Positions 18,479 through 48,595 of a DNA stretch of 64,000 bases are shown piece by piece (position 1 is the first letter of the stretch; each line of letters starts with the position of its first letter). A program made the translations under genes and the position numbers. The stretch is taken from NCBI GenBank assembly GCA_039105265.1, contig JAPFFF010000013.1:248001-312000 (forward strand). Reading direction: 5' to 3'. Below the pieces are notes generated by a model. The model was not told where the DNA came from, did no database searches, and saw nothing but the letters and a program-made list of their open reading frames with translations. This DNA comes from Tritrichomonas musculus. Taxonomy: Eukaryota; Parabasalia; Tritrichomonadida; Tritrichomonadidae.

Positions 18479-18482
18479 ATAA

Positions 18483-22493: not shown

Positions 22494-22683
22494 AAAACGC
22501 TATCCCATTTTTGATCCCATTTTTAATCCCATTTTTAAAAAAAGATATATAAATATAAGATTTACGTTTTCTTAAAAATAAATTATATAACTCTTCTATA
22601 GTTCGTATATATATATGTTAGAAATTTTTGGGGGGATCAAAAAATGGGATCAAAAATGGGATCAAAAATGGGATAGCGTTTTT
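22494..22683. promoter_or_regulatory. 44-bp inverted repeat before GIY-YIG-type gene
   Basis: 22494-22537 and 22640-22683 are inverse copies with one mismatch, each holding three spaced units of AAAAATGGGAT. Further direct ATGGGATCGAAA units lie at 22384-22430. The right arm ends about 37 bp before the next ATG. It could be an operator or a long hairpin. Confidence 0.7.
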
Positions 22684-22719
22684 TTTTTTATTTTTTTAAT
22701 TTTTTTATCACGAAGCCAA

Positions 22720-23484: not shown

Positions 23485-23515
23485 AAAAAATACCTCCATC
23501 TAATATTTTTTTACT

Positions 23516-23800: not shown

Positions 23801-23831
23801 TTGCCTTCGTGATAAAATGTAAAATAAATTT

Positions 23832-24356: not shown

Positions 24357-24379
24357 TTCATTTCGAAAAAAAATTTTAT

Positions 24380-24808: not shown

Positions 24809-24833
24809 TTCATTTCCAAAAAAATTATCCAGC

Positions 24834-25283
24834 TTACTCTAGGACGAGTGGTTGATGCTCCCCAATGTATAGTTCCGGCGTGCTTAAATTGTATTTCTCT
24901 CGTAGCTGAATAATTAATTCTTTCGTTTGTTTTGAAGCATTTTCTATAGAATAATTATAGTAGCTATGCGCTTCATATACCTGTTCTTGATTTGAGCCGT
25001 TGATAAAGAACTCATTCATCCTATAATTTAATCGACGGCGAGAATTTGCATTGATAATTACATGCTCTATTTCATATTTTTTGATTTTGTCAGGATATAT
25101 TCTCCAGGTCTTTTTTTCTGTCTTAAGTGATATATATATTACTTTGCCCAAAAATTTGTTGCGAGAAAGCTGGATGGGAAATTTATCACAGAGGATAGCA
25201 AAATTACATTCCTTCCATTCTTCTGGATTTTCAGCGAGGGAGATAATATTGTTGATGTAATCGTAGACTCTTTGCTCTTGCAT
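24834..25283 (-). CDS. Conserved Polinton protein, 149 residues
   Basis: A start at 25283 (MQEQRVYDYIN) is chosen because it aligns with the start of the 152-residue relative in element B (7667-8125) and follows AAATTTTTTTTATCTCCACCACAA; the frame is open further upstream into the capsid gene. Shared motifs are VYDYIN, CNFAILCDKFPI, KVIYISLK, NSRRRL, GSNQEQ, YYNYSI and the ending TPELYIGEHQPLVLE. It is preserved in two otherwise distant lineages and lies next to the major capsid gene here. That suggests a structural or packaging role; no fold is recognised. Confidence 0.75.
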   Translation of the reverse strand: MQEQRVYDYINNIISLAENPEEWKECNFAILCDKFPIQLSRNKFLGKVIYISLKTEKKTWRIYPDKIKKYEIEHVIINANSRRRLNYRMNEFFINGSNQEQVYEAHSYYNYSIENASKQTKELIIQLREKYNLSTPELYIGEHQPLVLE

Positions 25284-25320
25284 TTGTGGTGGAGATAAAA
25301 AAAATTTTAAGAATGAATAT

Positions 25321-26919
25321 TTATTGTGGAGTAGTGAGGTCATAATTTCCAAGACGAACGAGAGGAGGCATACCATTAGGCTGAACCAAAATTGATATTG
25401 ATGAATCAAATAAAAGACAAATTAGAGGTGGGGTTTGAACATCACTGGCATATGTATTTGCCCCAGTATTTTGTGATACAATAATTTCAAAATTAATAGG
25501 AGACAGAGATGTGAGTCCCTGCTGATATGTGTTGTCTGTCTCTGTTGGCAGAGCAATGAAAAAGCTGGTCCTGTCATCAGGATAATTTCCAGTTGAGCGT
25601 CTGTATGGTTGATTATTTGTTAGTGAAGCTACGACTTCTTTATTAAACCCGCTTTGTCCACCATTCATATTCATAGCGTTTTGGCAGTACTCTAAGAATT
25701 CTGGATACTCATCTGTCGTTCCAAATGCTTTTGCAGGGATGTTTCCATAGCCTCCACAGTTTAATTGAAATAGCTTAAATTGTGGATTCTTGAAGTAGGT
25801 ATGATGAGTGTGCTTTTCAGGGAATAAACAAAATATTGAGTCAACAAAGCGAGGAGTAATAGTACAGGTGGTTTTGCAATTTGGATTTTTTAGTCTATTT
25901 GTTGTAGTATATACAGAAAGGGTTTGTGTAGGAAATGTTAATGGATGAGTTGGGTCAGCATATCTTTGAACGAGACTGGAATAAATATTATCTTCAATAC
26001 CAAAGCATGGTATGATAGATGAGCATTCAGTAGTTTCATAACTGTTTACTTGGAATGTTCTGGGGTTTGCTGTAAGTGTTGTTTTGTCTGATGATATGGC
26101 AGTATACATTGTTATTGGTTCATTTATTGGAGTAAATTCATTCGTAATATTTGGTAAAGTATATTTTGATATTTCTTTATAGTTATTTTGCAAACATAGT
26201 TCTGGGCCCAAAGGACAGCATACCATTCCAGCACACGAGAAGAATAATCGAAGCTCTATCTTGCCTGCGAAGGCTGGGAGGTATTTAATATTAGAGAGTG
26301 GTAAGAATCGTCTTAAATCTATCTTGAGATGAATTTTATATTTTTGTTCATACCATTTAATACCATTTCTCTCTTTCCAATCAACAATGAATCCTGTTCT
26401 ACTTCCTGACTTACCATTCCATATATCTTTATGTCTGGCCTTAGAATATACATCTGCTCTCTTTGTTGTTTCGTTGGCACAACAGGCTGTTAAAAATGAT
26501 TCTTCACAACCAAAATTCTGTGTATAGATAGTAATGCCATTAGCCACGATTTCATATTTTTCGACGGCATCTCTAGCATCTTTAAAGCCAAACCAAACTC
26601 TATTGAATTGATAATTATCATCTGTATTTTCTATTTCTTTAACCTCTTGTCCAGCAGCTTCTTTAATACTGACTTCCATATCAGCTCTAATAAATCCATT
26701 ATATATGTCTGCTGTATTGTTTGTGTTTGGAGATATAATAGCAGTGGTATATGAGCCTTGGGGGATTGAAGGAGATGGAGAATATGATGTCTGGGGACTT
26801 ATAGTATACTGTTTGTTGGTATCACTTAGGGCTATACAATTATCTACAATATCAAAATATGATGCTATTTGGGTACATACTTCAGCTGATGTTCTGAGTT
26901 CAATCTCTGGATTAATCAT
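25321..26919 (-). CDS. Major capsid protein candidate (element C)
   Basis: The 532-residue protein has the layout of Polinton double jelly-roll capsid proteins: a long N-terminal beta-domain with FNRVWFGFKDARDAVEKYEI, a WKERNGIKWYEQKYKIHLKIDLRRFLPLS-type strand pair (quoted in part as KIHLKIDLRRFLPL), then GKIELRLFFSC. These match the order in the 647-residue protein of element B (LYKLFVGFKSSNQLFDRLEI, FDLNVPFDDLLAL, GDLSIRFQVSP). It is the largest single virion gene in the leftward cluster, next to basic core-type proteins, ATPase and vertex gene. The assignment rests on this pattern and gene order, not on a direct search. Confidence 0.8.
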   Translation of the reverse strand: MINPEIELRTSAEVCTQIASYFDIVDNCIALSDTNKQYTISPQTSYSPSPSIPQGSYTTAIISPNTNNTADIYNGFIRADMEVSIKEAAGQEVKEIENTDDNYQFNRVWFGFKDARDAVEKYEIVANGITIYTQNFGCEESFLTACCANETTKRADVYSKARHKDIWNGKSGSRTGFIVDWKERNGIKWYEQKYKIHLKIDLRRFLPLSNIKYLPAFAGKIELRLFFSCAGMVCCPLGPELCLQNNYKEISKYTLPNITNEFTPINEPITMYTAISSDKTTLTANPRTFQVNSYETTECSSIIPCFGIEDNIYSSLVQRYADPTHPLTFPTQTLSVYTTTNRLKNPNCKTTCTITPRFVDSIFCLFPEKHTHHTYFKNPQFKLFQLNCGGYGNIPAKAFGTTDEYPEFLEYCQNAMNMNGGQSGFNKEVVASLTNNQPYRRSTGNYPDDRTSFFIALPTETDNTYQQGLTSLSPINFEIIVSQNTGANTYASDVQTPPLICLLFDSSISILVQPNGMPPLVRLGNYDLTTPQ

Positions 26920-26945
26920 GGTGTTTTTATAAAAAAATAAAAACT

Positions 26946-27578
26946 TTATAACATATCAGAGAAAATATTATTCCTCCTTCTACGAATGACCTGAGGTTGA
27001 GGAGGAGGTGTTGGTGGTAGTTCTTCCTCTGGTTCTTCTTCTATATCATTGACAAAGTCAACTTTGCCTGAAGTCAAATTAGGCTCTTGAATATATTGTG
27101 GCTGAGTATATTGGTAGTAGGGTTTGCTCATTTGTTTTTGCACCACTTCTTTTATCATCCTTTTTTGTTCTTTCTTTTCTCGTTTATTTTTTATTTCTTC
27201 CCCCAATAACTTTAGCTGATTTAATATTTCCATATTTATTGTAGGGTCCTCCGCTTGTCGGAGGCAGCGAGGGCTCGCAGCTTCAAAAATGGCTGAATTA
27301 TTTGATTGCGGCTTAGTCCTTTCGATTTTTTTGGCAGAGCAGACCTTTCCCTGAGAGCAAGTGGGGAGAGGTTTGGTAGGCTCTTCTGCTGGCTCTTCTA
27401 CTTCCTGCTCTTCTACCTGTGGTTCAGCTTGAGGTTTGGATAGGGGCTCTGTTCTTCTTTTCACAATATATTTATTCTCTTTTTTTGTAGGCAAGACATC
27501 CCACTCAGGGTCATCACGACCATTTAACCAGTTTTGTATTACTTGTAATCTCTTCGATCCAGTCAAATGTTTAGACAT
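26946..27578 (-). CDS. Unknown charged protein, 210 residues, with hairpin insertion
   Basis: The protein starts MSKHLTGSKRLQVIQNWLNG and continues with DPEWDVLPTKKENKYIVKRR, which looks like a conserved N-terminal domain. A Pro/Glu-rich linker, a basic helix (KREKKEQKRMIKEVVQ) and an acidic Pro-rich tail ending in RRRRNNIFSDML follow. The residues ASPRCLRQAED at about 99-110 are coded by a GC-rich double hairpin (27248-27282) and look inserted. It lies between the major capsid gene and the basic core genes, so it is probably a virion or scaffold protein. Confidence 0.6.
   Translation of the reverse strand: MSKHLTGSKRLQVIQNWLNGRDDPEWDVLPTKKENKYIVKRRTEPLSKPQAEPQVEEQEVEEPAEEPTKPLPTCSQGKVCSAKKIERTKPQSNNSAIFEAASPRCLRQAEDPTINMEILNQLKLLGEEIKNKREKKEQKRMIKEVVQKQMSKPYYQYTQPQYIQEPNLTSGKVDFVNDIEEEPEEELPPTPPPQPQVIRRRRNNIFSDML
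27248..27282 (-). repeat. 35-nt double hairpin in element C coding sequence
   Basis: In inverse orientation it matches 31 of 35 bases of 7519-7553. It keeps the perfect CCTCCG/CGGAGG stem and forms GCGAG/CTCGC, one pair longer than in the B copy. It is in frame within the 210-residue gene. Confidence 0.85.
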
Positions 27579-27642
27579 TTAAATAATATTAAAATCGCTT
27601 TCTTTGAGTTTTATTTGCTTTTTTGGAGTTTTTGGGAGTTTT

Positions 27643-28398
27643 TCACCTCCTTGCTTTTCTTCTTCTTCTCATGCCTCTTATCATTCTATATCTTTTGCCT
27701 TGATATATTTTATAACCTGATGGTTTTCTTGAATAATGGATACGTGGATAATTTAAAGAATTTAGATAATAATTGGCTAATAATTCATTATTTACGTCTC
27801 CTATTTTTTTCTCTAATTCTTTCTTCTTCTCTTTGTTGTCTATTCTCTCACTGCTCTCTCCTAGTGATTTTATTACTTTAGCTCCTACTTTAACATATTT
27901 ATTGTCTGTTGCATTACCAATGGTTTCTGCAATTTCACCACCTCCTATGAGTAATTCAGTTTTATTATCCCATGCCCATTTCAATCTCTCTTTCATTTTA
28001 TTTACGTGTTCATAATTATTTTTGGGTATTCCATCTGTCATTTTATTATATGCTTTTTTAAGCTTGTTTACAAATTTCCCTGCTATCCCTTCGGAATTAT
28101 TTTGAGTTGTCATAGGGGGTGGCATAGGAGCTGGTGCTGGTGCTGGAGGCGGCATATAATGTGGGGTAGGAGGAGGTTCTTGGATTGGCTTGGGAGGAGC
28201 TGGAGTAGGAGTAGGAACTGGAACTGGTTTTTGGATTGGTTCTAGAGAAGGTCCTTGGGTGGGTTTTTTGCTAAAGAATTTGTTATATGTATTGCTCACA
28301 AGATTTGATATTTTATCACTTATCCCTCCTATTGGCTCTTCTGTACCATCACTTCGTAGGGTAGGAGCAGTACCCATCGTTAAAAATGGAATAGACAT
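27643..28398 (-). CDS. Proline-rich basic virion protein, 251 residues
   Basis: In order: a short N-terminal helix (ISDKISNLVSNTYNKFF), a Pro-rich linker at about 50-95 with repeated PAPAP and PPPPM units, a helical domain with NKTELLIGGGEIAETIGNATD, a charged helix, and a strongly basic tail (RMIRGMRRRRKARR). The helical domain and the HYSRKPSGYKIYQ stretch recur in the next gene (NKAEILQGAADVGDIIGEATG, FYGRKPTRYKMYQ), so the two are tandem duplicates that diverged. A core, DNA-binding or membrane-active capsid protein similar in role to adenoviral minor proteins is inferred. Confidence 0.65.
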   Translation of the reverse strand: MSIPFLTMGTAPTLRSDGTEEPIGGISDKISNLVSNTYNKFFSKKPTQGPSLEPIQKPVPVPTPTPAPPKPIQEPPPTPHYMPPPAPAPAPMPPPMTTQNNSEGIAGKFVNKLKKAYNKMTDGIPKNNYEHVNKMKERLKWAWDNKTELLIGGGEIAETIGNATDNKYVKVGAKVIKSLGESSERIDNKEKKKELEKKIGDVNNELLANYYLNSLNYPRIHYSRKPSGYKIYQGKRYRMIRGMRRRRKARR

Positions 28399-28420
28399 TT
28401 AAATGAAGACAAAATTTAGC

Positions 28421-29101
28421 TTACCAATCATCCTTCTCAAACTTGTCATATGCTTCTCTTTGTCTTCTTACAGCTTCTTGTAGATCGGCCACAAATTGTT
28501 TATCTTGTTTCCAATTTCTAGCTTTTTCAGCTGCTGACATTTTTTTCTTTGGAGGTGATTCTTGTTTCTTTGGTAATGCTTTGGGAGGCGGGGATGGTTT
28601 TTTGGGAGGCGGGGATGGTTTTTTGGGAGATGATTTTTTATTTTCTGTCGTGGCTTCTTTTTGTTTTTGCTCTATTTGTTTCTTCAACTGATTTAATTTT
28701 TCATTGGCTTCATCAATATATTTATTTCTTCTTTGATACATTTTATATCTTGTTGGCTTCCTTCCATAAAACATCCTTGGTACATCAGCGTAGGCTATAT
28801 GTTTGTTTCCAAACATCCGAGCATTCCTTTCCTGAATTAATTGAGCCAACAATTTTTCCTGGCTGTTTTTATCATCAATTTGTCCTGCAGTTTTACCAAC
28901 AACTCTTACAACATCAGCTGCTACATTCCATTTATTATTTCCAGTCGCTTCCCCAATTATATCACCTACATCTGCAGCTCCTTGTAAAATTTCTGCTTTA
29001 TTATTATTAATCCAATTACCAATTTTTCCAAATATACTAACACCAGCATCTGAAGGGGTAGATGGAATATATTTTCCAGAATCAATAGTTCCTGAAGGCA
29101 T
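28421..29101 (-). CDS. Lysine/proline-rich virion protein, 226 residues
   Basis: This is a paralogue of the 251-residue protein that follows it. The N-terminal half has VSIFGKIGNWINNNKAEILQ, a Gly/Ala-rich amphipathic region (GAADVGDIIGEATG), and YGRKPTRYKMYQRRNKY. The C-terminal half is a coiled coil followed by KKPSPPP repeats and a charged tail. It is probably a DNA-binding or capsid-lining protein. Element B has an 84-residue protein (50645-50899) with a similar amphipathic Gly/Val region but no tail. The gap to the ATPase gene is 15 bases. Confidence 0.6.
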   Translation of the reverse strand: MPSGTIDSGKYIPSTPSDAGVSIFGKIGNWINNNKAEILQGAADVGDIIGEATGNNKWNVAADVVRVVGKTAGQIDDKNSQEKLLAQLIQERNARMFGNKHIAYADVPRMFYGRKPTRYKMYQRRNKYIDEANEKLNQLKKQIEQKQKEATTENKKSSPKKPSPPPKKPSPPPKALPKKQESPPKKKMSAAEKARNWKQDKQFVADLQEAVRRQREAYDKFEKDDW

Positions 29102-29116
29102 TTATTGTGAAATAAA

Positions 29117-29971
29117 TCATTCAAAGTAATATTTGTTGGCTGTTATATTACAAATAAATTTGTCGTGAGGCTCACGATGCTGCAAATATTCCTTGACTGT
29201 TTTTTTGATATTTAGATTGTTATTTGTTTGTTGGAGCAATGATGTAAAATCTTCTTCTGAATATCCACTATAGCATATAATATCGGTGGCCAATCTCTTT
29301 GCATTTATATGGACAAATCTAATGGTTTGGATAGCCATAATGCATGTAATATTATAGTGCCTAGTTTTTGTTAGTAGCCTTAAGAATTCAGTATTATTAT
29401 GCGTCAATAAATCGCTCCCAGCACAGTCATCCAATATTATTAGAGTGTTATATGGATATGATGAAGTTTGATATTTTACTAGCTTGTTTGCTATATATAC
29501 TATTCTATCATCTATTTCTTGAAGGGAGTGCTTGTTTATAAGCCGCTGCATTTCTTCATTTGTCTCTTTCATTTTTGATAATACATGCTTTACCATCGCA
29601 TAATATTTTATCTTTCGCTTTAGATGTTTTTTCAAATAATCCATCAATTCTGCTTCGTTCAAATATATGATTGGTGTCTTGACATTTTGACTCATCGCCT
29701 CTGCAGTTTTGTCCATCTTACCGCTTGTGGAACAGAATACTATCTTCTGGTAGTAGGGATACTTAAATAATCTCTCGGTAATTAAAATGTGTTTCCATAT
29801 CCAATAACTTTTTCCAGCACCTGGTTTGCCTATCAAAAAATATATACCGTTCGTGCTAAATGGATAGGAAGGATGAATTGGTTTCATAAGTGCAGACTCT
29901 ATTTCCTTTTGGTTTTTTCGCATGGTTTTTTGGATTAAAACTTCTACTTCTTTCATTATTTGTTTAGCCAT
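29117..29971 (-). CDS. DNA-packaging ATPase (element C), intact
   Basis: The 284-residue protein has a Walker A motif GKPGAGKS at 48-55, a Walker B TLIILDDCAGS near 175-185, and later SGYSEEDF. This fits the A32/FtsK-HerA-type packaging ATPases of Polintons and large DNA viruses, which should pump the element's DNA into capsids. Size and motif spacing are normal. It is the only complete ATPase gene in the window, because element C itself broke that of element B. It is separated from the integrase gene by ten bases, both leftward. Confidence 0.9.
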   Translation of the reverse strand: MAKQIMKEVEVLIQKTMRKNQKEIESALMKPIHPSYPFSTNGIYFLIGKPGAGKSYWIWKHILITERLFKYPYYQKIVFCSTSGKMDKTAEAMSQNVKTPIIYLNEAELMDYLKKHLKRKIKYYAMVKHVLSKMKETNEEMQRLINKHSLQEIDDRIVYIANKLVKYQTSSYPYNTLIILDDCAGSDLLTHNNTEFLRLLTKTRHYNITCIMAIQTIRFVHINAKRLATDIICYSGYSEEDFTSLLQQTNNNLNIKKTVKEYLQHREPHDKFICNITANKYYFE

Positions 29972-29981
29972 TTATTGTTGG

Positions 29982-31091
29982 TTAAATCCATTTTTTAATG
30001 TTTGATGGGATATTTTTTTGTTTGCTCCAATAATCCATTTCGAGGTTTGATAATTTAGTTGGGGCTCCTTCTCGTAAATTTTTGGCTGGAATAACATCTT
30101 CTGTCCCTTCACTATATTTAATTTTATATTTATTCTTAGCTGCATCGTAGGATATAATTTTATCCACAATACCTCTCTTGCCTCCCTTTAGTGTCTGAGC
30201 AAGAGGCACTTCTGCCCCGGGGCCCTTCAGGCCCTTATTTTTATTCTGTGTTTTTATCAATCTATATCCCGGCAACTTATCTATTGATTCATCTTTGGAC
30301 TTAACAATAAATTGATTTCCAGCTTTTGAATCAACAATATAAGCCTCCTTGCTGACCCTATTTCTTCGCTTCGAAAATGGTTCCTTGGCTTGTATAATTC
30401 TCACCCTGTCGTTAGGCTGAAAGTCATAAGGATTGATTTGTGATTTAGTATTAATATATTCTTTTTCATCTTTCTCTGTCATTTCGTTTGGTATTTTATA
30501 GTCCAACGATCGGTGAGGGGATTTATTGTAGGAATCTATTAATCCCTTCATTTCTTGTTCTCCAATAAATCTATTCTCTCCTACCATATCTCTTATAGTT
30601 CTCATGAATCTATTTATGATGCCTAGTACATTATGATTATTGTCTTCCGTAGTATTGTATATAATATTTTTTGCCTTCATTATTTGCAAAACATCATTGG
30701 ACAAATAGGCTGCATCCTGGTCTGAAGTAATAGAATAAACATTTGGTTCATCTACTAAAAATTGATTTAATGCTCTAGCTACTTCTTTTGCTCCCTTCCC
30801 TCTCATCGCATAACAAAAAGCCTTCCTGGTATTGATATTTATAAACATCAGATAATTCAAACCATCTTTTGTTTTGTCATTTATGAAAGTGTCCATTTGA
30901 TATCCTCCTGAGTGTTTTGAATATATATTCATAAATTTTGCCTTTGGTACTTTAACATCATGCACTATATTCTTCAAATAATTTAATGCTGCTTCTTCTG
31001 TAAATCCATATCGTTTTGCAAGAGGAACAAATTTTGATGGTGTTTTCCACGGAAACTTTTTATATAACTCCTCTATTGTTTTGTAAGTCAT
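29982..31091 (-). CDS. Retroviral-type integrase (element C), third catalytic residue changed
   Basis: The 369-residue integrase inserts the element. The catalytic core has Asp67 in YQMDTF and Asp124 in ITSDQD. Exactly 35 residues further, where the third acidic residue belongs, is Asn160 in GIINRFMRTIRD. The integrase of element B has Asp at the aligned site (CVDAVIRTLRN). The C-terminal part has an SH3-like region (NDRVRIIQAKEPF) and a chromo/Tudor-like region (VDKIISYDAAKNKYKIKY) that could bind chromatin. GAT to AAT is a single transition, so a recent inactivating change is possible. If so, transposition would need enzyme from elsewhere. Confidence 0.9.
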   Translation of the reverse strand: MTYKTIEELYKKFPWKTPSKFVPLAKRYGFTEEAALNYLKNIVHDVKVPKAKFMNIYSKHSGGYQMDTFINDKTKDGLNYLMFININTRKAFCYAMRGKGAKEVARALNQFLVDEPNVYSITSDQDAAYLSNDVLQIMKAKNIIYNTTEDNNHNVLGIINRFMRTIRDMVGENRFIGEQEMKGLIDSYNKSPHRSLDYKIPNEMTEKDEKEYINTKSQINPYDFQPNDRVRIIQAKEPFSKRRNRVSKEAYIVDSKAGNQFIVKSKDESIDKLPGYRLIKTQNKNKGLKGPGAEVPLAQTLKGGKRGIVDKIISYDAAKNKYKIKYSEGTEDVIPAKNLREGAPTKLSNLEMDYWSKQKNIPSNIKKWI

Positions 31092-31117
31092 TGTTTTGAA
31101 AAAAAATAAACCCTCAG

Positions 31118-32179
31118 TTAATATAACATTTTACGGTAAGGGAAGAATATCATTTCGATAGAAAAGCTTTCGCTTCTCGGTATTTTTACTGGTATATCTT
31201 TATGTCGACCAGAATATAGTTCGATCCAGAATCGTTGGTCAGTTGAGTTCAGCTTAAAGTATTTTATGGGGTTGAAGTATATTGTTGTGTTTCCAACATA
31301 TCCTTGATTTGATTGGTCCCCGAAGGATGAATAAATTTTACATGAATGCCTATCCCATACATTATAAAAATTGACTTCTCTAAGCCATTTAAATTTATAG
31401 TTATTATGATAATTTGCCCCTTGGTCTGTCTCTCCACTAATATTAAACACATCTTCGAAATCATATTTTCGGTCTATCAATCCAAAATCTTGAACGGTTC
31501 GATGAGGAAAATCAATTGATATGTCAATATAAAATGGACTCTTCTTATCATAATTATGTCGAGATAAAATTCTTTCCAAATATGTTTTTCTCCTATAATC
31601 ATAGAATCCATCAGCCATGACATCAAGCTCAGTTGAAAGGCCATAAGGGTCTTCACTAAATCTTGGCTTGTCTTTATACTTAGCTTTCTCTTCTTCTGTT
31701 TTTGCCTTCGCCAAATTGTCTTCAATCTCTTGATTATATTTTTTCATTTCAGCCCATAGATATTCATATAATACGTGTCCAAAACCACCGAAATCATCCT
31801 TCTCACTCATCCACATTAAAACATTTACTTCAACCATAGATTTCCTTGCAGCAGGTATACTTATATACGCTGAGTGGTCATATAAGTTTGGGTCATCTGA
31901 TTTTGGAGGAGGAGTGGCATATTTATTGTAGTCCTCTTTGTAGTATTTCCTAACTTTAATTTTAAATTCTAGCCTTCTCTTTCTAGCTAACATAAATATA
32001 TTTCTAACACCAATAATAGACTCACCACGATTAGATGTGCACCATTCTTGTGGAAAATTAAAATAATAACGATTAAATTTCGCAGGGTCTCTTTCTCCAT
32101 CTTCCAGAAAGAAAGCGTGCTCCATAGGGATTGGTGTTTGTTCTTCAGCTGGATTGAGCGTCGGGTACATTTCAATCAT
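31118..32179 (-). CDS. Vertex/minor capsid-like protein (element C)
   Basis: The start at 32179 (MIEMYPTLNPAEEQ) is preferred over an upstream in-frame ATG at 32260, which lies in the tail of the TIR gene. The 353-residue product has FNRYYFNFPQEWCTSN, GESIIGVRN, several long beta-strand-like stretches and a C-terminal IEMIFFPYRKMLY. Its size and place beside integrase and ATPase fit the minor (penton-like) capsid protein of Polintons, which is inference. The first 24 codons lie in the right TIR, so a truncated copy exists at 8985-9056. The N-terminal domain also recurs alone in element A (1136-1495). Confidence 0.65.
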   Translation of the reverse strand: MIEMYPTLNPAEEQTPIPMEHAFFLEDGERDPAKFNRYYFNFPQEWCTSNRGESIIGVRNIFMLARKRRLEFKIKVRKYYKEDYNKYATPPPKSDDPNLYDHSAYISIPAARKSMVEVNVLMWMSEKDDFGGFGHVLYEYLWAEMKKYNQEIEDNLAKAKTEEEKAKYKDKPRFSEDPYGLSTELDVMADGFYDYRRKTYLERILSRHNYDKKSPFYIDISIDFPHRTVQDFGLIDRKYDFEDVFNISGETDQGANYHNNYKFKWLREVNFYNVWDRHSCKIYSSFGDQSNQGYVGNTTIYFNPIKYFKLNSTDQRFWIELYSGRHKDIPVKIPRSESFSIEMIFFPYRKMLY

Positions 32180-32894
32180 TATAAAACAACTTCTTGATTC
32201 GAAGGGATATCTTAACAAAAAATGGTTGGGATTTCTTCCAAAAAAAATGCTTAGATTCACTTAAATATTTGATGGTTCTCATCGAAATATCGATATCTTG
32301 GAGCGTCTTTTTCCTTCAACAAATCGTAATCACCACTATATTTCAACAAAGCTGCTCGTCTAAATTTTGCATATCTAAAGCCGCTAAACTTGTTCCTTTC
32401 ATCTAATACTTCCAAAATGACGTATCCTTTGCTATCGCACGTCCTAACATTTTTTTGCGCATCATAGATTTGTTGCGTCTGTCTTGATGTATAATAGGGG
32501 TTGCGTAAAGTGTAGCCTTTATATTCTGTCATCATTTTTAAATCACTCGGGGCGTCCATTTGTCGTCGTGATAAAAAATGGTTGGGATTTCTTGACGGGA
32601 CGTTAAGAAATCACGCCATTTATATATACTACTTTTTAGAGATTTTTTTTGAAATTTTTTTTTTCAATTTTTTGATTTTTCAATTTTTTGATTTTCAGTT
32701 TTTTCAATTTTCAGTTTTTTTGAATTTTTTAATTTTCATTTATAGGGGGGGAGGAAGGGGTATACAATTAATATATCTATTTTAAAAATGGGGTCCGGGG
32801 CGGGAGCCCTGGAGTAGCGCGAGCGGAGCCTTGGCGGAGCGCTGCGGTATAGGCTTCGGGGAGCGAAGCGTACCGGAGCCTATACTTTACTACT
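32108..32894 (-). repeat. Right terminal inverted repeat of element C
   Basis: The inverse of 8270-9056, 787 bp, with no difference seen. Confidence 0.95.
32257..32559 (-). CDS. TIR protein, 100 residues, right copy
   Basis: The exact duplicate of 8605-8907 within the right TIR, reading inward. Its stop codon is 78 bases before the chosen start of the vertex-like gene on the same strand, so here the two may be transcribed together. Confidence 0.7.
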   Translation of the reverse strand: MDAPSDLKMMTEYKGYTLRNPYYTSRQTQQIYDAQKNVRTCDSKGYVILEVLDERNKFSGFRYAKFRRAALLKYSGDYDLLKEKDAPRYRYFDENHQIFK

Positions 32895-32899
32895 AAGAT
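32895..32899. other. Target-site duplication of element C, right copy
   Basis: AAGAT follows the terminus CTTTACTACT and matches 8265-8269. Confidence 0.85.
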
Positions 32900-33137
32900 G
32901 AAGAATGATGTTGCATTATTTTTCCATTCTGTTGTTAAAGCTTTGAAGAACTGGATGTTAACGAATATGATTAGATTCTTATGTCGAAGCTGACTGATGG
33001 TATTGATAAAATAGGATGATTTAATTAGTTTCGATTTCAAGAAGTCTTCACAAAGAATGATAGTATTTAGTGGTTTATTTGGTTGACCTAGTTTATTGAT
33101 ATGAAGAAACTCAAACATATCGTTTAACTTCTTTTCA

Positions 33138-33168
33138 TTTTGCTTCGCAAAAGGGGACTCCGTCCCTT
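33138..33168. repeat. 31-nt double hairpin, copy in ATPase gene
   Basis: It consists of TTTTGCTTCGCAAAA followed by a GGGAC/GTCCC stem with a three-base loop. Related 31-nt copies are at 37899-37929 and, inverted, at 48596-48626. It is in frame within the ATPase gene. Confidence 0.85.
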
Positions 33169-33712
33169 CGATTACTATTTTTGGTGTTGATGAATATTTG
33201 TTATACAATTCTTTATATAAATCAAGTTGTTTAAGATATTCTTCAGCATTGCTGTCAGCAACAGTTTTTATTGGTAGCTGTATCAATTCGCGTTGGCTTT
33301 CGAATGTTGCATCATTGATTGTTCCGTTTCGTGATACATAAACAATTAAATGAAAGCCAGCGTTCTTCATTCGAGACATTTGAATAACATCTCGTAGCAT
33401 TATATGACTCTTTCCTTTACCTTGCTGACCAACGAGTATGTTCAATGAATTGTAATATGAATAAATACCGTTTGCGATTGGTCTGATTGATTCATTCTTT
33501 ATTTTTGATTCATTGCGTTGATATGCTTTATTCATCTCGTCATCAATATTAAATGTTGTTTCATTAACAGTTGGCTTGAATGATTCATATTCAAATGCAA
33601 AACTCATTTGGTCATCATCATAATCAGAGCCACTAGAGAATAAAATCTCATTATAATTAAACTGAGTGGGTTTCATGAAACGTTTCATTTCTTTAGTTTT
33701 CGTTAAAGCTCT

Positions 33713-33844
33713 TCATGAATACATTTTTGTTCTTATCTCTTCACTGAGTTCTGGTTCTTTGTCAGGCATCATTAAAGATACTTCAACAATCTTCACTAAA
33801 AATAAACCTGTTAATAATGAAACAACTAATATTTCATATATCAT
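33713..33844 (-). CDS. Small 43-residue membrane protein
   Basis: An ATG at 33844, ten bases after the 191-residue gene and following AACTAATAA, opens 43 codons to TGA at 33713-33715. The product has a hydrophobic segment at residues 1-20 (MIYEILVVSLLTGLFLVKIV), long enough to cross a membrane once, and then a charged tail (PDKEPELSEEIRTKMYS). It fits between the ATPase and 191-residue genes with normal spacing and the same direction. A role in capsid membrane or entry is possible. I recognise no family. Confidence 0.5.
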   Translation of the reverse strand: MIYEILVVSLLTGLFLVKIVEVSLMMPDKEPELSEEIRTKMYS

Positions 33845-33854
33845 TTATTAGTTT

Positions 33855-34430
33855 TTAAATACATGTTTTTAATGAAATGTTGTGTCTAATGAGTTCGGTA
33901 TAAATGCTATTATATTTGTATTTCAAGTCATTTGATTCATTATTTTTGTACACCAATATCCTATCAATTAAAAGATATTTGGAACGAGAAACGCAACCAT
34001 TACACGCACAATCATCATTGACAATCAATTCAACTTTATCTGCTTGTGTTAGTAATTTGATGAGTTCCATTAATGTATTTGAATGACAAATCAATAAATC
34101 ATTGACTTTTATTGGTTTTGTTTCATAGATTGATAACAATATCTCAAGGAATTTGTTTTTGGTTTCAAGTTCTGTTATATCAGCTCCAATATCACTGATA
34201 CCTCTTTCTAGGGAAACGTTGTTTGTTGGATGCTGTGATTGATATACTCCATTCATCTGAGGTATAGTAAAATTTGTGGCTTGAGATGATTGTGGTAATG
34301 GTTGAACTGATGGATATTCAACTGGTTGTGGTTGCTTTGGTTTGATGTTTATATTAATACTGGTTGATTGTTCCTGCTTAACTGATGCATCGTTCTCACT
34401 GGAAAGAATACGAGCTTTTGATAATGCCAT
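33855..34430 (-). CDS. Conserved Polinton protein, 191 residues
   Basis: The C-terminal 80 residues match those of the 174-residue protein of element C (23832-24356): LMELIKLL, KVELIVNDDCACNGC, and the ending YNSIYTELIRHNISLKTCI. The N-terminal half is low-complexity, rich in Gln, Pro and Ser. Conservation in two distant lineages marks it as a core Polinton protein of unknown function. It is in the same relative area, between polymerase and ATPase. The Cys cluster could bind a metal. Confidence 0.65.
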   Translation of the reverse strand: MALSKARILSSENDASVKQEQSTSININIKPKQPQPVEYPSVQPLPQSSQATNFTIPQMNGVYQSQHPTNNVSLERGISDIGADITELETKNKFLEILLSIYETKPIKVNDLLICHSNTLMELIKLLTQADKVELIVNDDCACNGCVSRSKYLLIDRILVYKNNESNDLKYKYNSIYTELIRHNISLKTCI

Positions 34431-34484
34431 GAATGTTTGAATAAAAATAAAACAACATTAATGATGAGTCATTCAATGATTCAT

Positions 34485-34730
34485 TTACAAAGTCATTTGT
34501 TCAGCTGATTTGATACGTTCATCAATAGCTCTTAATTGTATTTTAATCGATTCAATATCATTAAATAGTTGTTTATATATCGACAATATGTGAATCATCT
34601 TATCAAACTTTCCGTTTAATGCATCATCTTCAGAATTCATACATTCATTGAATATCTTGTCTTTAACTATTCGAAACTGAGCGTGTAAAGCTGATGTATC
34701 ACAACTCAAACCTTTAATTGCACTATTCAT
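34485..34730 (-). CDS. Small helical protein, 81 residues
   Basis: An 81-residue protein begins MNSAIKGLSCDTSALHAQF and is mostly predicted helix, with a coiled-coil-like C-terminal half (IESIKIQLRAIDERIKSAEQ). No family is recognised. It is in a leftward row with the 116- and 191-residue genes, with gaps of about 40-55 bases filled by A/T-rich leaders, so it is probably expressed. Confidence 0.55.
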   Translation of the reverse strand: MNSAIKGLSCDTSALHAQFRIVKDKIFNECMNSEDDALNGKFDKMIHILSIYKQLFNDIESIKIQLRAIDERIKSAEQMTL

Positions 34731-34768
34731 TTTAAACCAAAAATAAACAAATTAATTAAATGATATTT

Positions 34769-35119
34769 TTATTCTTTGTTGTTCTTAAATGCCAATAATC
34801 TATTAATCATATATGATGATACATTTAACTTCAATTTTTCCTTCAATAAGTTTTGTGTATATGAACACCTTTTATGTCCTGGCAACTTATTTATATCATT
34901 CATTACTTTATCATCCAAAAATTGTATAACTTTTTCACGTTCATCCTTGTTCAAGAACTTTGATGAATTGAATATTGAACGCGTTCTTTTATGGTTTGCT
35001 TCTGTATTTGCTTCTTCATTTGTTTCTTCTTCTTCACTTACTTCTTGTTTTGATTCTAATATCAAAAGTAATTTATGTATTTCTTCAATGTGTTTTATTA
35101 TTTCTCTTAACTCAGACAT
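34769..35119 (-). CDS. Possible DNA-binding protein, 116 residues
   Basis: The N-terminal half is a coiled coil with an acidic run (EVSEEEETNEEANTE), followed by a basic KRTRS stretch and a helical C-terminal domain (KFLNKDEREKVIQFLDDKV, then YTQNLLKEKLKLNVSSYMIN) that could be a winged helix. Similar C-terminal helices occur in the GIY-YIG-type protein of element C and the split protein of element A. It starts 92 bases from the divergent polymerase gene and could regulate it, which is inference. Confidence 0.5.
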   Translation of the reverse strand: MSELREIIKHIEEIHKLLLILESKQEVSEEEETNEEANTEANHKRTRSIFNSSKFLNKDEREKVIQFLDDKVMNDINKLPGHKRCSYTQNLLKEKLKLNVSSYMINRLLAFKNNKE

Positions 35120-35211
35120 TTCAATGAAATAAAAAACTCGAAATATTTTTTATTTTTTGATTTAACATTTTTTTAAATTTCAAATAATTTGATTTTTTAA
35201 TAATATCATAA

Positions 35212-38200
35212 ATGAGTTCTCGTTATTACTATAGAAAAGATACCAAATCATTTGTTATTGAACAAATCAGGTATATCAATAATGAACTTCAATTAAAACC
35301 TCGTTTGTCAACATCTAAACCTAGTGATTATGAAGTAAAACATTTCAAGTCAATCTTAGAAAATTATCTAACTTCATTTGGTTTTAGAGAACATGAAGGT
35401 AATAGAATAGATGACATATCAATATTAGATTTCGTTAATAGAATGAAGAAAGAAGCAGAAGAACAAGCAGAAGAAGAGGAAGAAGAGGAGGAAGAAGAAG
35501 AAGAACAAGATGATGAACAAAAACTAAAACAAAAACAAATCGAGAACAACATTAAAATTGCTCATGATGCACTCAACAAAGCCCTTCAATTAATTAAATC
35601 TGAAAATATATTATTGAGACCATTACCGCCAAAGACAAACAAACAACCTCAACGATATGAAGACATTCGATTTAACAATGAAAATGCTGAATTAATTGAA
35701 TATCTCAAAAAGTTTAGCTATAAAGGTGTTCATTCAAAACATGATTCATATTTCATAATCAACGAACCTGAGAACTTTGATGAAGCAGTTGAAGCATGTA
35801 GTCATTTCATTGACCAATTCCCAAATGATAGTGAAAAGGTTGAACGATTAGATGAAGACAGTAAAGAACCGATTAAAATATATTACAAAAACGGTGTTTC
35901 ATCAATTGAAGACATCAATGAATATTTAACTGAAACAGTATTTAAACAAGAAGTGAAACCGTTCAAAATATATTTTCAATTGACTGGTATATTTGAGATA
36001 CCACCAAAGAATGAAAGTGAAAGATATACATATGAGGCAAGTGATATTAATTGGAAGAATTATAAATCATCAATTCCGATAATTGTTAGAGAGAATAAAG
36101 ATATTGATAAAATTAAACTGTATATTGAATCAAAGATTCATGAATATGAAACCACGGCTTCAAACATTAAATTATGTATCGTTTGGTCTGTTTCATTTAC
36201 AATCTCTCGTGTAGTTAAGATAACAGGAAAGATTGATGAAGTTTCAGAATTGTTTGGCAAAAATAAATATATCATTATTGATAACGTTGATGATTGTTTG
36301 TGTTGGTATCGTTTCCTTGCTTGTTGTTTGTTTCCTGAACTAACAAATCAAAACAAAGATGAAAAGAAAACAAAATATAATACAGCTAACAGAACCAAAG
36401 CAGCAAAGAAAATATTATGTGAAGACCACGGAATAACTTATTCAACTAAACCTACAAAAGAAGCAAATCAAATCATCAATTCGTTCAAAGGTATCACGAT
36501 TGAAGAAATGAAGGAATCAGCCAAGAATCATAACATCAATGTCAACATCTATGAATATGACAAAGAGAAACATATTTATGATATTCAAGAACAATGGCAT
36601 AACATAGACGAATCAAACAAAACGTTTTCAGCCCTGTTGTATTCAAAGGATAAGATACTTCACATAATGTACATCATCAATGCTGAAGCATTAACAAATA
36701 TTCATATTTGTCCTCATTGTGGTTCATACATTCACAAAGGAAATAACAATATTGACAGATTCAACAGACATGTAGATAAATGTGAGAAGCTAGGAGGCAA
36801 ATTCAAAAAGGATTTCATACCTTCACGAGAAGCTTTACCGTACTGCCCGCACATCTTAAACAATCCTGTTTATTTGTATTGTCTTTCATATGAGCTTGAA
36901 TGGAAGCCAACAAAGCATTATATCACTTATGATTTTGAAACAATGGAACAAAAGATTGAAAAGAAAGTCAGTGATAAATCTGTTATCAATTCTCGATTGA
37001 TTCCTTTGAGTGTTTCATCATGTGTGAAGCTTGATAAAGGTTTGATAACAAAGAACTTTGATATACGAACAAATGAATTCATTGCCAAATGGATTGACTG
37101 GTTATTTGTTGTTGGCTGTGATGTGTATGTTGATAAATTGAATCATTTAAAATCATTCATTAAAGATAAATCGGAAGAAGAACTCAATAAAATAGATACA
37201 TCATTGAAAACAATAACAGTATTCGGTTTTAATTCATCACGATTTGATTCAAACTTATTCAAAGAGCAATTGATTAAAAATCATTGGTCTATCGATAGCG
37301 GAATGATTGGAACAGCTGCATCATTGAAACAATTTATATTGAAATCATCAAAGTACCCTATTCGATTACGATTCATTGACGCACAAGCATTTGTTGCTGG
37401 AGGAACACTCAAACAGTTTGGAATCGATTTTGGCGGTATATCTAACAGTTCGAAAGGTGTATTTCCTTATGAAGCAATCAACAGCGAGAATTATAATGAA
37501 GTGTTATCAAAGAATGAACCATTCAAATATGAAGACTTCTACAGTTATCTCAATCAAAAGAATCCATTAACAAAAGCTGATTATGAAGAGTATTTGATTG
37601 ATTCAAAGAGGTTTGCAACACGTTGGGATTACTTGTTATCATACAATGACAATGATGTTGAAATGATGATTAATCCTATTGACAACCTTATTCAAATGAA
37701 TGCTGAATATAAAGTTGATTTGATTAGCAATCTTTCATTGTCAAAGAACGCATCATGTATCAAATATGCTCTTGCTTACAAAGATTTCAACCCGAAGAAT
37801 GACTATGAAACCATAAACAAGATGAATACATTCAAACCATCAATGAAATGGTGGTTAAATAAATGTGATAACTATCGAAAGCAAGACATGAAACATAATT
37901 TTTGCTCGCAAAAAGGCGATTCATCGCTTCAATCAAATCAAAATCAACGTGATATATCAAAATGTGTTAGTGAAAAAGATTTTGATGCATTCATGAAATT
38001 GTATGAATCAAATGAAACAGGTAAATGTCATTTATGTGGTGAACACTTTACTTACAACAACAAACCAACTCTTGACCGAATAGATAACAACAAAGGACAT
38101 CAGATTGATAACTGTTTACTTGCTTGTGCTGAATGTAATCGTTTGAGACAACGTGATGATGACAAGATAACAAGAACCAAAATACAATTGAAGAAATTCT

Positions 38201-39801
38201 GCAAGCTCCATCACCTGCCAACACTCATAACTGATGAAAAAGAATACTACAACTTGAGAGAGAACATAACAGGAGGTTTATCAAATGTACTTCATCGAGT
38301 GAACATCAGAGGTCAAACATTAATCAATAAACTCAAATATGATGCCGTTAATGACAGAATCATTAGCTATGACACTTCAAACATAGTTTCACACGTTGCT
38401 GGTATTGATTTCAATTCATTGTATCCCTCATCATTCAGTTCAGTAAAACATTCATTCAATCCTTATCACGGAGGAATCATGTACATGCCTGGTTCATTTA
38501 TAAAACGATTTGATGTTTATGATGAACAAGGAAACAAGAATGAAAAGGTTCTCAATGCTGCAATGAATATCATTCAATCAAAGAAGCGATTTGATGCAAA
38601 CCCTGAGTTTATATTCAAAGCTGAAGTCAAATTAAGATGTCCAAAGAATAAAATCAATGATTTGATTAACTTTCCCCCTGTGTTTAGAAACATCAATATA
38701 ATGAATGATGAGCAAACAATCGGAAGTTATATGTACAAATACATGAAAGACAATAAACTGAATTCAGCCGATAAAGAAACAAGAAAGCTGACAATGTTGC
38801 TTGATACATGCGGAACATTTATGACGTTCTCGAATTACCTTTTATGGTTTTTAATCGACCACGGACTTATAGTTGATGACATTAAGAGCTTAAGTTTATA
38901 TGAAGCTCATGACGGATTCAATCAATTTGTTTGTGAGTTTATGAAGAAGCGTCAAGATATATTGTCAGGAAAGGCACACGGGAACGAAAAGTTTTACAAG
39001 ATTAGTATGAACGGATCTTACGGATATGACGGTATGAATTCAGAGAACTTTAATAAAGTCAGAATTGTTGATAAAAATAAAGCCTTTCAATTGATTGCAT
39101 CCGATACTTATCGTAATGGATGTAAACTGTCAAATGATTGTTATTTGATACAATCACAACCTCATTCATTCAAATGTAATACATGTCTTCAGGAATCATT
39201 TTGGACTTTAGACAATGCGAAATATTGGTATTTAACTTTCCTTTATGACTTTCTATACAAATGCATTGACATGAATAAGATTCATTTCAACTCAGTCGAT
39301 ACGGACAGCCTTTACATGTCTATAGCTGGTGATATGAATAAACCGATTGACCAGTTGTTTGATTACGTCATCAAAGACAAAACATTTTATGACAAACACA
39401 TTTATAGCTTTATGCCAAACCCTGCAATCAATGATGTATATGATGAGAAAAAGATACTCGGATGCTGTGTAGAAAAGTTCGGAGCAAATCAAGTTGCTTT
39501 ATGTGCCAAGTGTTATACGATTTGGTCAGATGACAAAACAATTTCATTAAAGCTCAAAGGTGTTTCATTGAAGAAGAACAACATCAAATCAAGTGATTAC
39601 AAAAATGTCATTGAAAAGCAATCAGTAATGAAAGGAAAGAATATAAACCTTCAATTAAATTCACAACTGATGAGTAAAATAACTGTTATCAAAAATGCTT
39701 TAACAGCAGCACATTCAAAAATGTTGGTATTATCAAATCATTGTTGTTGTCCTTATGTCAATGGTTTCACTGCAAAGGATTATTTCATTGAGAATCATTA
39801 A
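35212..39801 (+). CDS. polB: Protein-primed family B DNA polymerase with internal HNH domain (element B)
   Basis: The 1,529-residue polymerase has, in order: a Glu-rich run at 82-101, a DDCLCWYRFLACCLF motif near 360, a C2H2 finger (CPHCG...H...C) near 500-523, exonuclease motifs DFE at 574-576, Asp679 and Asp815, an HNH domain at about 939-978 (CHLCG, LDRIDNNKGH, CAECNRLR), then polymerase motifs with Asp1066 (DFNSLYPS), Asn1267 (MNGSYGYDG) and Asp1363/Asp1365 (VDTDS). All catalytic residues are present. The HNH domain lies between proofreading and palm domains. A 31-nt hairpin (37899-37929) codes the residues just before it. This lineage differs from the polymerases of A and C. Confidence 0.95.
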   Translation: MSSRYYYRKDTKSFVIEQIRYINNELQLKPRLSTSKPSDYEVKHFKSILENYLTSFGFREHEGNRIDDISILDFVNRMKKEAEEQAEEEEEEEEEEEEQDDEQKLKQKQIENNIKIAHDALNKALQLIKSENILLRPLPPKTNKQPQRYEDIRFNNENAELIEYLKKFSYKGVHSKHDSYFIINEPENFDEAVEACSHFIDQFPNDSEKVERLDEDSKEPIKIYYKNGVSSIEDINEYLTETVFKQEVKPFKIYFQLTGIFEIPPKNESERYTYEASDINWKNYKSSIPIIVRENKDIDKIKLYIESKIHEYETTASNIKLCIVWSVSFTISRVVKITGKIDEVSELFGKNKYIIIDNVDDCLCWYRFLACCLFPELTNQNKDEKKTKYNTANRTKAAKKILCEDHGITYSTKPTKEANQIINSFKGITIEEMKESAKNHNINVNIYEYDKEKHIYDIQEQWHNIDESNKTFSALLYSKDKILHIMYIINAEALTNIHICPHCGSYIHKGNNNIDRFNRHVDKCEKLGGKFKKDFIPSREALPYCPHILNNPVYLYCLSYELEWKPTKHYITYDFETMEQKIEKKVSDKSVINSRLIPLSVSSCVKLDKGLITKNFDIRTNEFIAKWIDWLFVVGCDVYVDKLNHLKSFIKDKSEEELNKIDTSLKTITVFGFNSSRFDSNLFKEQLIKNHWSIDSGMIGTAASLKQFILKSSKYPIRLRFIDAQAFVAGGTLKQFGIDFGGISNSSKGVFPYEAINSENYNEVLSKNEPFKYEDFYSYLNQKNPLTKADYEEYLIDSKRFATRWDYLLSYNDNDVEMMINPIDNLIQMNAEYKVDLISNLSLSKNASCIKYALAYKDFNPKNDYETINKMNTFKPSMKWWLNKCDNYRKQDMKHNFCSQKGDSSLQSNQNQRDISKCVSEKDFDAFMKLYESNETGKCHLCGEHFTYNNKPTLDRIDNNKGHQIDNCLLACAECNRLRQRDDDKITRTKIQLKKFCKLHHLPTLITDEKEYYNLRENITGGLSNVLHRVNIRGQTLINKLKYDAVNDRIISYDTSNIVSHVAGIDFNSLYPSSFSSVKHSFNPYHGGIMYMPGSFIKRFDVYDEQGNKNEKVLNAAMNIIQSKKRFDANPEFIFKAEVKLRCPKNKINDLINFPPVFRNINIMNDEQTIGSYMYKYMKDNKLNSADKETRKLTMLLDTCGTFMTFSNYLLWFLIDHGLIVDDIKSLSLYEAHDGFNQFVCEFMKKRQDILSGKAHGNEKFYKISMNGSYGYDGMNSENFNKVRIVDKNKAFQLIASDTYRNGCKLSNDCYLIQSQPHSFKCNTCLQESFWTLDNAKYWYLTFLYDFLYKCIDMNKIHFNSVDTDSLYMSIAGDMNKPIDQLFDYVIKDKTFYDKHIYSFMPNPAINDVYDEKKILGCCVEKFGANQVALCAKCYTIWSDDKTISLKLKGVSLKKNNIKSSDYKNVIEKQSVMKGKNINLQLNSQLMSKITVIKNALTAAHSKMLVLSNHCCCPYVNGFTAKDYFIENH
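37899..37929. repeat. 31-nt double hairpin, copy in polymerase gene
   Basis: It consists of TTTTTGC-TC-GCAAAAA followed by a GCGAT/ATCGC stem. It has the same length and shape as 33138-33168 with a different second stem. It is in frame, coding NFCSQKGDSSL, about 30 residues before the HNH domain. Confidence 0.75.
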
Positions 39802-39856
39802 ACAATTAATTTAATGATTTTATTTTAAAAAATCAATTTTTTTATTTTTGTTATAA

Positions 39857-40495
39857 ATGAGTCAACCAACTGAACAAACACAAATTGAAAATGCTGAAGC
39901 TGAATTTGAACCTTTGAAAGGTTTTGAAAGTGATTATGAAATTCAAACAACTTTCCCTTATAACATCAAGAATAAGAAAACAGGAAAAATAATAGCTGAA
40001 GGTGAATACAGACAAAATGTTTATCCGTGTGTAAACCTAAATAACAAAATATATTATAAACATATTCTTGTAGCAAAGCAATTTATTGAAAACCCTAATA
40101 ATCTACCACAAGTCGACCATAAGAATAGAATCAAAACTGATTATCATCTTGATAATTTACGATTTGTATCAAGTTCAGAGAATAATAAAAATAAATCAAA
40201 TTATAAAGGTATTCAATATGAATTCATTGATGACATACCTGATGATGCAATTGTTATTGATTTCTATGAAACAAAGACAGAAAGGAAAGAATTTGAAGAA
40301 AACACGTATTATTATTACCATGATGATACTAATAATGAAGACATTTTTTATGCAAAGATTACTGATAATATTTATAAAATTCTTCATATCAATACAAATA
40401 AATCAGGCAATGAATTTATTTCAATGAACGATATAAATAATCAAAAAGTTAGCGTATATATTAATAGATTCAAACATCAACATGATTTGATTTGA
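39857..40495 (+). CDS. HNH homing-type endonuclease, 212 residues
   Basis: The N-terminal half follows the plan of phage and organellar HNH_3/NUMOD-type nucleases: YPCVNLNNKIYYKHILVAKQF with His69, then LPQVDHKNRIKTDYHLDNLRFV, and SSSENNKNKS (to about residue 116). His, Asp-His and Asn residues of the active site are visible. The C-terminal half is not recognised and is rich in Tyr and Asp. It is 56 bases downstream of the polymerase, on the same strand, and convergent with the fibre gene (6-bp gap). It may act as a homing enzyme or as a helper in replication. Confidence 0.8.
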   Translation: MSQPTEQTQIENAEAEFEPLKGFESDYEIQTTFPYNIKNKKTGKIIAEGEYRQNVYPCVNLNNKIYYKHILVAKQFIENPNNLPQVDHKNRIKTDYHLDNLRFVSSSENNKNKSNYKGIQYEFIDDIPDDAIVIDFYETKTERKEFEENTYYYYHDDTNNEDIFYAKITDNIYKILHINTNKSGNEFISMNDINNQKVSVYINRFKHQHDLI

Positions 40496-40501
40496 TTTGA
40501 T

Positions 40502-43696: not shown

Positions 43697-43718
43697 TCAA
43701 TTTATTAGAAACTAAACA

Positions 43719-47132: not shown

Positions 47133-47144
47133 TTTGAATAGTCA

Positions 47145-48564: not shown

Positions 48565-48595
48565 TTGAATCGCAAAAATAAAGCATTAATTTATG

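Follow-up and report, generated by a model that had tools for sequence, protein, structure and literature searches.

A 30-nt double hairpin in the Mavericks of Tritrichomonas musculus: a candidate mobile DNA element

Three copies of a short sequence with two adjacent hairpins lie within one Maverick of Tritrichomonas musculus, and both partners of a stem pair differ between two of these copies. Does such a paired change speak for selection on a folded RNA, as a preliminary description of this DNA had proposed, or can it arise at the level of the DNA itself? The locus was analysed within a stretch of 64 kb (the window) of the 193-Mb assembly, which consists of 746 contigs; the G+C content of the window is about 0.28–0.41. 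All three copies are hosted by the outer of two Mavericks, and the coordinates of the features are collected in Table 1. The target duplication of the outer Maverick is the 6-nt AACGGA (6601-6606 and 52790-52795). The nested Maverick cuts the ATPase gene of the outer element just past copy 1, after about residue 273, and the listed ATPase ORF of 303 residues finishes in terminal-repeat sequence. Stacked tandem arrays (TAAACGGTCGA-type, 21-nt TAGTGCGGCATTAACATAAGA units and T-rich units) occupy positions 17317-18180, ~700 nt before the polymerase ORF of the nested Maverick at 18913. A DUF3839 protein, of a family that is presumably trichomonad-specific, is also present in the window.

Table 1. 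Features of the window
Feature	Position	Strand	Remarks
Outer Maverick ('element B')	6607..52789		Host of all three copies; terminal inverted repeats and target duplication
Nested Maverick	8270-32894		Inside outer Maverick; 5-nt target duplication AAGAT
P-loop ATPase ORF	32777-33688	-	
B-family polymerase ORF	35212-39801	+	
HNH_3 endonuclease ORF	39857-40495		Free-standing, directly after polymerase gene; PF13392, E=1.6e-6
Integrase-like ORF	47485-48564	-	rve match below cut-off
Site A, 30-nt element	33139..33168	+	In P-loop ATPase ORF, antisense to gene
Site B, 30-nt element	37900..37929	+	In B-family polymerase ORF, sense
Site C, 30-nt element	48596..48625	-	Intergenic, ~32 nt before ATG of integrase-like ORF
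Site I, empty target	51945..51946	.	In terminal-repeat ORF; relatives L043-L047, L053 and L057 filled here with 30-nt element
36-nt element, copy 1	7519..7554	+	Second family; 12 codons, G+C-rich double hairpin; in left terminal-repeat ORF
36-nt element, copy 2	27247..27282	-	Second family; inside nested Maverick (ORF 26946-27578, -)

The three copies of 31 nt that had been noted earlier were indeed read at 33138-33168 (+), 37899-37929 (+), and 48596-48626 (with the element on the - strand). The length of exactly 31 nt holds for the copies as read, but the insertion itself amounts to 30 nt, since one base remains at the junction in empty alleles; 31 stands for 30 plus one T of ambiguous assignment. 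The consensus of the element consists of two adjacent hairpins, T/TTTGC-NNN-GCAAA/AG/GGGAC-NNN-GTCCC/TT. At site A, stem 1 is formed by 33138-33143 and 33147-33152, and stem 2 by 33154-33158 and 33162-33166. Copy 2 (site B) has a 2-nt loop 1 and a 4-nt loop 2, and splits 16+15, unlike the other copies (15+16). Predicted DNA folds (five variants) and RNA folds (four sequences) both gave the two hairpins; hence, folding does not separate a DNA reading from an RNA reading. As for the host genes, the labels ATPase and polymerase rest on motifs that we take to be a P-loop (GQQGKGKS) and polymerase signatures (YDFET, DFNSLYPS, and DTDS), but neither ORF was called by Pfam at E<=0.001. At about residues 930-980 of the polymerase, some 30-40 residues after copy 2, there is a stretch that resembles an HNH insertion, CxxC...DRIDNNKGH...CxxC, for which Pfam gave a weak zinc-ribbon match and nothing more.

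When a degenerate pattern of the second half was searched at up to 3 mismatches, it was found at 3 places in the window, compared with 0.22 expected from shuffles. Copies 1 and 3 matched it without mismatch, while copy 2 does not fit; the third match, at 44635 (3 mismatches), was taken as chance. When the window was scanned for double hairpins under a strict stem requirement, 4 regions were found, a number within the range of 0-4 seen in ten resampled controls. In the whole genome, a loose pattern was matched 254 times forward and 314 times in reverse, compared with 19 and 19 times for the reversed pattern. A chance repeat was ruled out, as the pattern matches exceed the shuffle and reversed-pattern controls in the window and in the genome. 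These counts give no exact copy total for the genome, because copy 2 is counted more than once, some matches are plainly other sequences, and the listing covers the first places. Moreover, many of the matches are the same insertions carried within repeated Mavericks and not independent copies.

Copies were counted as distinct when they differed over 150 nt on each side, and sites were grouped by their flanks. The loci examined contain 57 distinct filled copies, whose 30-nt sequences are of 13 kinds and which fall into 12 sites, labelled A to L (copies per site: A 9, B 8, C 6, D 4, E 2, F 8, G 6, H 1, I 8, J 2, K 1, and L 2). A further flank pattern gave 16 places, all of types already met. Eleven of the 12 sites adjoin ORFs similar to the Maverick ORFs of the window; at site L (L036/L037, of which L037 was tested) no match to these ORFs was found nearby. 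Five sites are intergenic and seven lie in open frames, six antisense and one sense. At E<=1, the window has two Rfam matches, both below the gathering score and neither at the copies.

Filled and empty alleles were compared by their flanks. In the systematic rows for sites A, B, and I, where gaps of -10 to 80 were accepted, the gap was 0 or exactly 30 nt in every row. The distinct rows, empty to filled, numbered 8/9 for A, 10/8 for B, and 3/7 for I; sites F and D gave filled rows only. Several of the rows at A and I had been retrieved for other sites and so were not selected by the pattern. Clean empty alleles were found for site A (L063, 99% flank identity), site B (L072 against the filled L003, 99.5%), site D (96.6% over 145 nt), site H (97%), and site I (95% and 97.5%, in two lineages). 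At site E the window lacks the element, but there is a further 3-nt gap at the junction. Sites C (L040), F (L039), and G (L009) gave weak or gapped matches that lack the element and nothing cleaner, and for J, K, and L no empty allele occurred among the sequences compared. The flanks of site B were found joined without the element at 29 places in the genome, 14 reading AAT^CAA and 15 reading AAC^CAA. Where empty alleles were compared, no target duplication beyond the one ambiguous T was seen. The insertion is thus precise.

It is also oriented. The target is close to (A/C)AT^CA, and the orientation of the element to this word is identical at every site. For 13 flank classes (the 12 sites, with F taken twice), A was found at -2 in 12, T at -1 in all 13, C at +1 in 12, and A at +2 in 11. 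Among the 57 copies, the target words were CAT/CA (27), AAT/CA (16), CAT/CG (6), CAT/TA (3), AAT/AG (2), TAT/CA (2), and CTT/CA (1). The exceptions are a T at +1 in three copies of site A, the CTT that precedes K, and the AG that follows L; at the empty site B places, C instead of T stands at -1 in the 15 AAC cases. The ends of the element are TTTTGC and CTT in the aligned variants. The terminal inverted repeats and target duplication that together mark a terminal-inverted-repeat MITE were not observed.

Thirty nucleotides are ten codons, and all seven open-frame sites stay open through the element. Six of these (A, B, E, G, H, and I) lie in ORFs that have homologues among the Maverick ORFs of the window, and L lies in an unsupported open frame; short stop-to-stop frames touched by C and F were left uncounted. 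The insertion point of site E falls in a relative of the HNH_3 ORF, in L055. Site A reads EGTESPFAKQ in frame, and A, E, G, H, and I all read EGTxSPFAxQ (EGTxFPFAxQ for H), antisense to the element. Site B reads FCSQKGDSSL in the sense direction, while site L is read antisense in another phase. When the flanking bases are included, 12 of the 13 variants are closed in one or more of the six frames, and for most variants the other five are open; the frame affected is in most cases that in which the junction gives TGA, and it is closed in the empty site too. With a length divisible by three and so few closed frames, the element can sit within genes as ten codons. Five of the seven open-frame sites (five of the six with homologues) share one phase. 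However, 228 of the 552 target words in the Maverick ORFs of the window are in this phase and strand, so that the supply of targets explains much of the bias. Selection on the peptide phase was set aside, the excess being weak (about 0.05-0.1 by hand estimate).

In an alignment of 90 ATPase rows (89 homologues and the query), of which a few do not cover the insert position, the ten-residue insert was present in two (P0002 and P0003); no relative in viral contigs was found in this alignment. In related metagenomic Maverick ATPases, about twelve further in-frame inserts, each unique and 8-13 residues long, are seen in comparison with relatives of at least 90% identity. Among these are the inserts of P0009, P0024, P0045, P0047, P0055, P0074, and others.

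The change from G-C to A-T between copies 1 and 3, reported in the preliminary description, was found at element columns 19-27, and both loops differ between the two copies. Covariation was then counted over 12 distinct variants, the type of copy 2 being omitted for its differing arm lengths. Nine cells were changed on both sides and none on one side, with one cell unpaired, and four of the five stem-2 pairs had changed on both sides. None of 500 shuffles reached the observed value, and sliding the partners gave 0-2 such cells. The nine cells reflect at least four independent double changes, one per pair. One-sided intermediates, G-U pairs included, are absent from the 12 variants; the broken pair (GGTGAC/GTCCC variant) is kept in three distinct copies. 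It may be noted that stem 1 is constant because the search patterns fixed it. Genome patterns that left the stem-2 pairs free, with the common types excluded, gave 2, 3, and 35 places with 8 distinct sequences. The free pairs were complementary in all 40 places, and the reversed-pattern control gave none.

At site F, loop 2 is AAG in some copies and CTT in others, which are exact reverse complements. In four pairs of AAG and CTT copies, the flank identity was 87.8-99.1% upstream and 95.3-97.4% downstream. For L054 and L065, which are 99.1% (upstream) and 95.3% (downstream) identical over 1400 nt, loop 2 is the sole difference within the element. Between sites, loop 1 likewise shows both TTC and GAA, and both TTT and AAA. 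Template switching between the arms of an inverted repeat is described as homogenising the arms and inverting the spacer, with a ttc/gaa case in a yeast gene, in the part of PMC8604942 consulted. In the portion of PMC8794818 used here, it is proposed as an explanation of compensatory changes without intermediates. Double changes without G-U steps, together with loop flips, are footprints of template switching; the pairing therefore needs no selection on a folded RNA. Thus the earlier claim is partly supported: the covariation is borne out by the larger set, whose clear excess of paired over unpaired changes passes the check proposed in the preliminary description, but the step from covariation to RNA selection is not.

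The presence of the element is patchy. Filled and empty rows are mixed in the flank trees, and presence does not form one clade. On the best flank tree, 5 changes were counted for A (at least 2 on starred branches), 2 for B, and 3 for I (at least 2 starred), the strong (starred) branches being few and most others weak (1 of 14 starred for A, 3 of 15 for B, and 2 of 7 for I). Either repeated filling of one site, or precise restoration of the empty site, or short conversion tracts would produce this patchiness. At positions left free by the patterns, the elements differ by 2.64 (summed site means), compared with 9.3 predicted from the flanks, and 1.61 of the 2.64 comes from the loop flip at site F. 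Identical elements occur in divergent flanks.

From these observations, we propose that the sequence is probably a 30-nt mobile double-hairpin DNA element, which would spread at the DNA level as Mavericks replicate, copying of arm against arm keeping its stems paired. Mavericks belong to a class that is copied through strand displacement by a protein-primed polymerase. Such copying would expose single strands on which both hairpins could fold. Short template switches, or an enzyme that acts on single strands, might then place a copy of the element in a new CAT/CA site. Loss or restoration at a given site could follow the same route. Copying of arm against arm would keep the stems paired and flip the loops, and as it would maintain pairing by itself, the compensatory changes would need no folded-RNA function. 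Neither an insertion intermediate nor a responsible enzyme was seen. An enzyme would account for the conserved ends and the two-sided target as well as, or better than, unaided template switching.

An enzyme of the HUH type is a serious rival, which we regard as possible though not probable. It would act in trans on single strands, either as in IS200/IS605-like peel-and-paste or as a Helitron-type Rep; the unit moved would be a minimal non-autonomous element, with one hairpin as its left end and the other as its right. The hairpins at both ends, the lack of a target duplication, the fixed orientation, and possibly the precise restoration of empty sites are all in its favour. Helitrons insert between A and T without duplication, and the 1-nt ambiguity lets the present insertion be read as A^T; the A at -2 and the T at -1 of the flank classes agree with this, although the empty site B reads AAC at 15 of 29 places. 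Helitron_like_N (PF14214) gave 22 matches in the genome, some of them in frames open up to 1937 residues and others with stops. Those in long open frames (1808 and 1937 residues; G000:C1:1490187, G000:C6:2062457, and G000:C20:409178) are possibly intact Helitron-type elements. PF14214 was found in none of 14 control genomes, so that this search is one without a positive control. For Y1_Tnp (PF01797), on the other hand, the genome yielded no match, although 5 of the 14 control genomes were positive in this search. The ends of Helitrons are 5'-TC...CTRR-3', and those of the element are not of this type. Right-end searches of the genome found no longer element with the same right end.

Three other explanations involve RNA or a nuclease. 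The earlier reading, in which selection acts on a folded RNA, be it regulatory, cleaved, or protected, and the double changes compensate at the RNA level, draws on the strong covariation, on predicted RNA folds that match the model, and on elements that are more conserved than their flanks at free positions. We consider it unlikely, since the one-sided and G-U intermediates are lacking, one site shows an exact loop inversion, the element lies in both gene orientations and between genes, Rfam gave no match at the copies, and near-identical Mavericks differ in having the element or not. Homing, in which the HNH nuclease of the Maverick would cut empty sites and the element would be copied in from a filled Maverick, could account for the patchy presence at fixed sites and for identical elements in divergent flanks, and the HNH_3 match does lie beside the polymerase gene. 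It explains the re-filling of one site but not the spread to 12 unrelated sites, and is on this account quite improbable. Insertion through an RNA intermediate, by reverse splicing or reverse transcription, agrees with the lack of a target duplication; the similar suggestion for the double-hairpin elements of Allomyces rests on lacking duplications, as far as the portion of PMC2800124 used here goes. It appears very unlikely for the present element, as general scans, with Rfam for the window and with Pfam for part of the ORFs in it, gave no significant ribozyme or reverse transcriptase, and the double changes and loop flips point to copying of DNA in any case.

How does the proposed mobile DNA element compare with known systems? 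Double-hairpin elements (DHE) of Allomyces mitochondria were reportedly described by Paquin et al. in 2000. IS200/IS605-derived palindromic elements and REPINs have hairpin ends, an oriented target, and no duplication, as has the present element, but unlike for these IS200/IS605 or REP/RAYT derivatives, no Y1 transposase was found in the genome by Pfam. Fungal mitochondrial DHE vary in presence between close relatives, sometimes lie within genes, and are retained in transcripts, according to the part of PMC2800124 consulted. The present element resembles them in its two adjacent hairpins (five variants folded, twelve counted for pairs) and in being present or absent among close relatives without a target duplication (sites A, B, and I). 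In contrast to DHE, it is found inside nuclear Mavericks on large contigs and not in mitochondrial DNA; the fixed length of 30 nt and the AT^CA target are features found here. Rickettsia palindromic elements, of ~150 bp and with a conserved peptide, lie in bacterial genes; in the sections of PMC10969869 drawn on, they share with the present case palindromic DNA that is in frame in coding genes and several families per genome, but the present element has 30 nt and lies in eukaryotic Mavericks. PARCEL coding palindromes, which are also read in frame, form tandem repeats of 25 residues, some in surface proteins, as given in the extract of PMC2996958 used, unlike the single ten-codon insertions found here. 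The hairpins attributed to template switching in the consulted parts of PMC8604942 and PMC8794818 have the same homogenised arms or double changes without intermediates, and the same inverted spacers or loops, but they are resident inverted repeats, whereas here the hairpin pair itself would be mobile. The element works like fungal mitochondrial DHE and Rickettsia palindromic elements, and belongs to neither by the tests made. Among the matches listed for open-licence papers that combine Trichomonas or Polintons with palindromes, hairpins, repeats, or transposons, no title or abstract start describes it, though it may still have been published.

A second family of the same kind is present in the window. 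The left terminal repeat of the outer Maverick contains a 36-nt double hairpin, for which the right terminal repeat is empty near 51878/51879, although over 911 and 44 nt the two arms do not differ in any other way. This difference arose very recently, by gain, loss, or conversion. The 36-nt element is lacking in L044 and L045, and also in L057 as read through a messy alignment, but is present in L018 and L052/L053.

Tentatively, the replication of Polintons/Mavericks may host minimal mobile DNA, in the form of 30- or 36-nt hairpin pairs of whole codons that would hop on single strands between genes, re-enter sites, and write in-frame peptides into replication and other proteins. If this is true, few of the mobile elements known from nuclear genomes would be as short as these, which would also constitute a natural assay of template switching; the unexplained inserts of 8-13 residues in the metagenomic ATPases could be of the same class in other trichomonads. 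For double-hairpin mobile elements, the nuclear Mavericks are an unexpected setting and the size is extremely small. A route by which short in-frame peptides enter the proteins of virus-like elements is suggested. As exact empty and filled alleles exist in near-identical Mavericks, the movement of such tiny elements is testable. The locus is also a clean case for separating covariation from selection, with double Watson-Crick swaps and a loop flip in DNA that is inserted as one unit and lies in either orientation to transcripts. For repeats inside such elements, template switching should be checked before covariation is taken as a sign of RNA function.

An import from bacteria or viruses was also considered and rejected. 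No two-hairpin copy was present in 36 stretches of viral contigs and 10 of genome contigs, all 46 of which were read by eye; the patterns used required a given stem 1 and the GG...CTT frame, and records of the genome of the window itself may be missing from the collections. The repeated matches of the type CGGGGC-TTTTGCGTTAGCAAAA-GGGTGGGG were something else and not the element. Within the genome, no place was found where stem 2 (GGGRAC/GTYCC) follows an AAAA that is preceded by any base but C. Stem 2 that is not preceded by A was found at 11 places, compared with 1 and 1 in the controls. Five of the 11 were read: four belong to one site with another stem 1 and one is a single variant. In these sequences (L143-L145 and L147; L146), the same stem 2 stands with a different or degenerate stem 1 and is followed by CAT or C.
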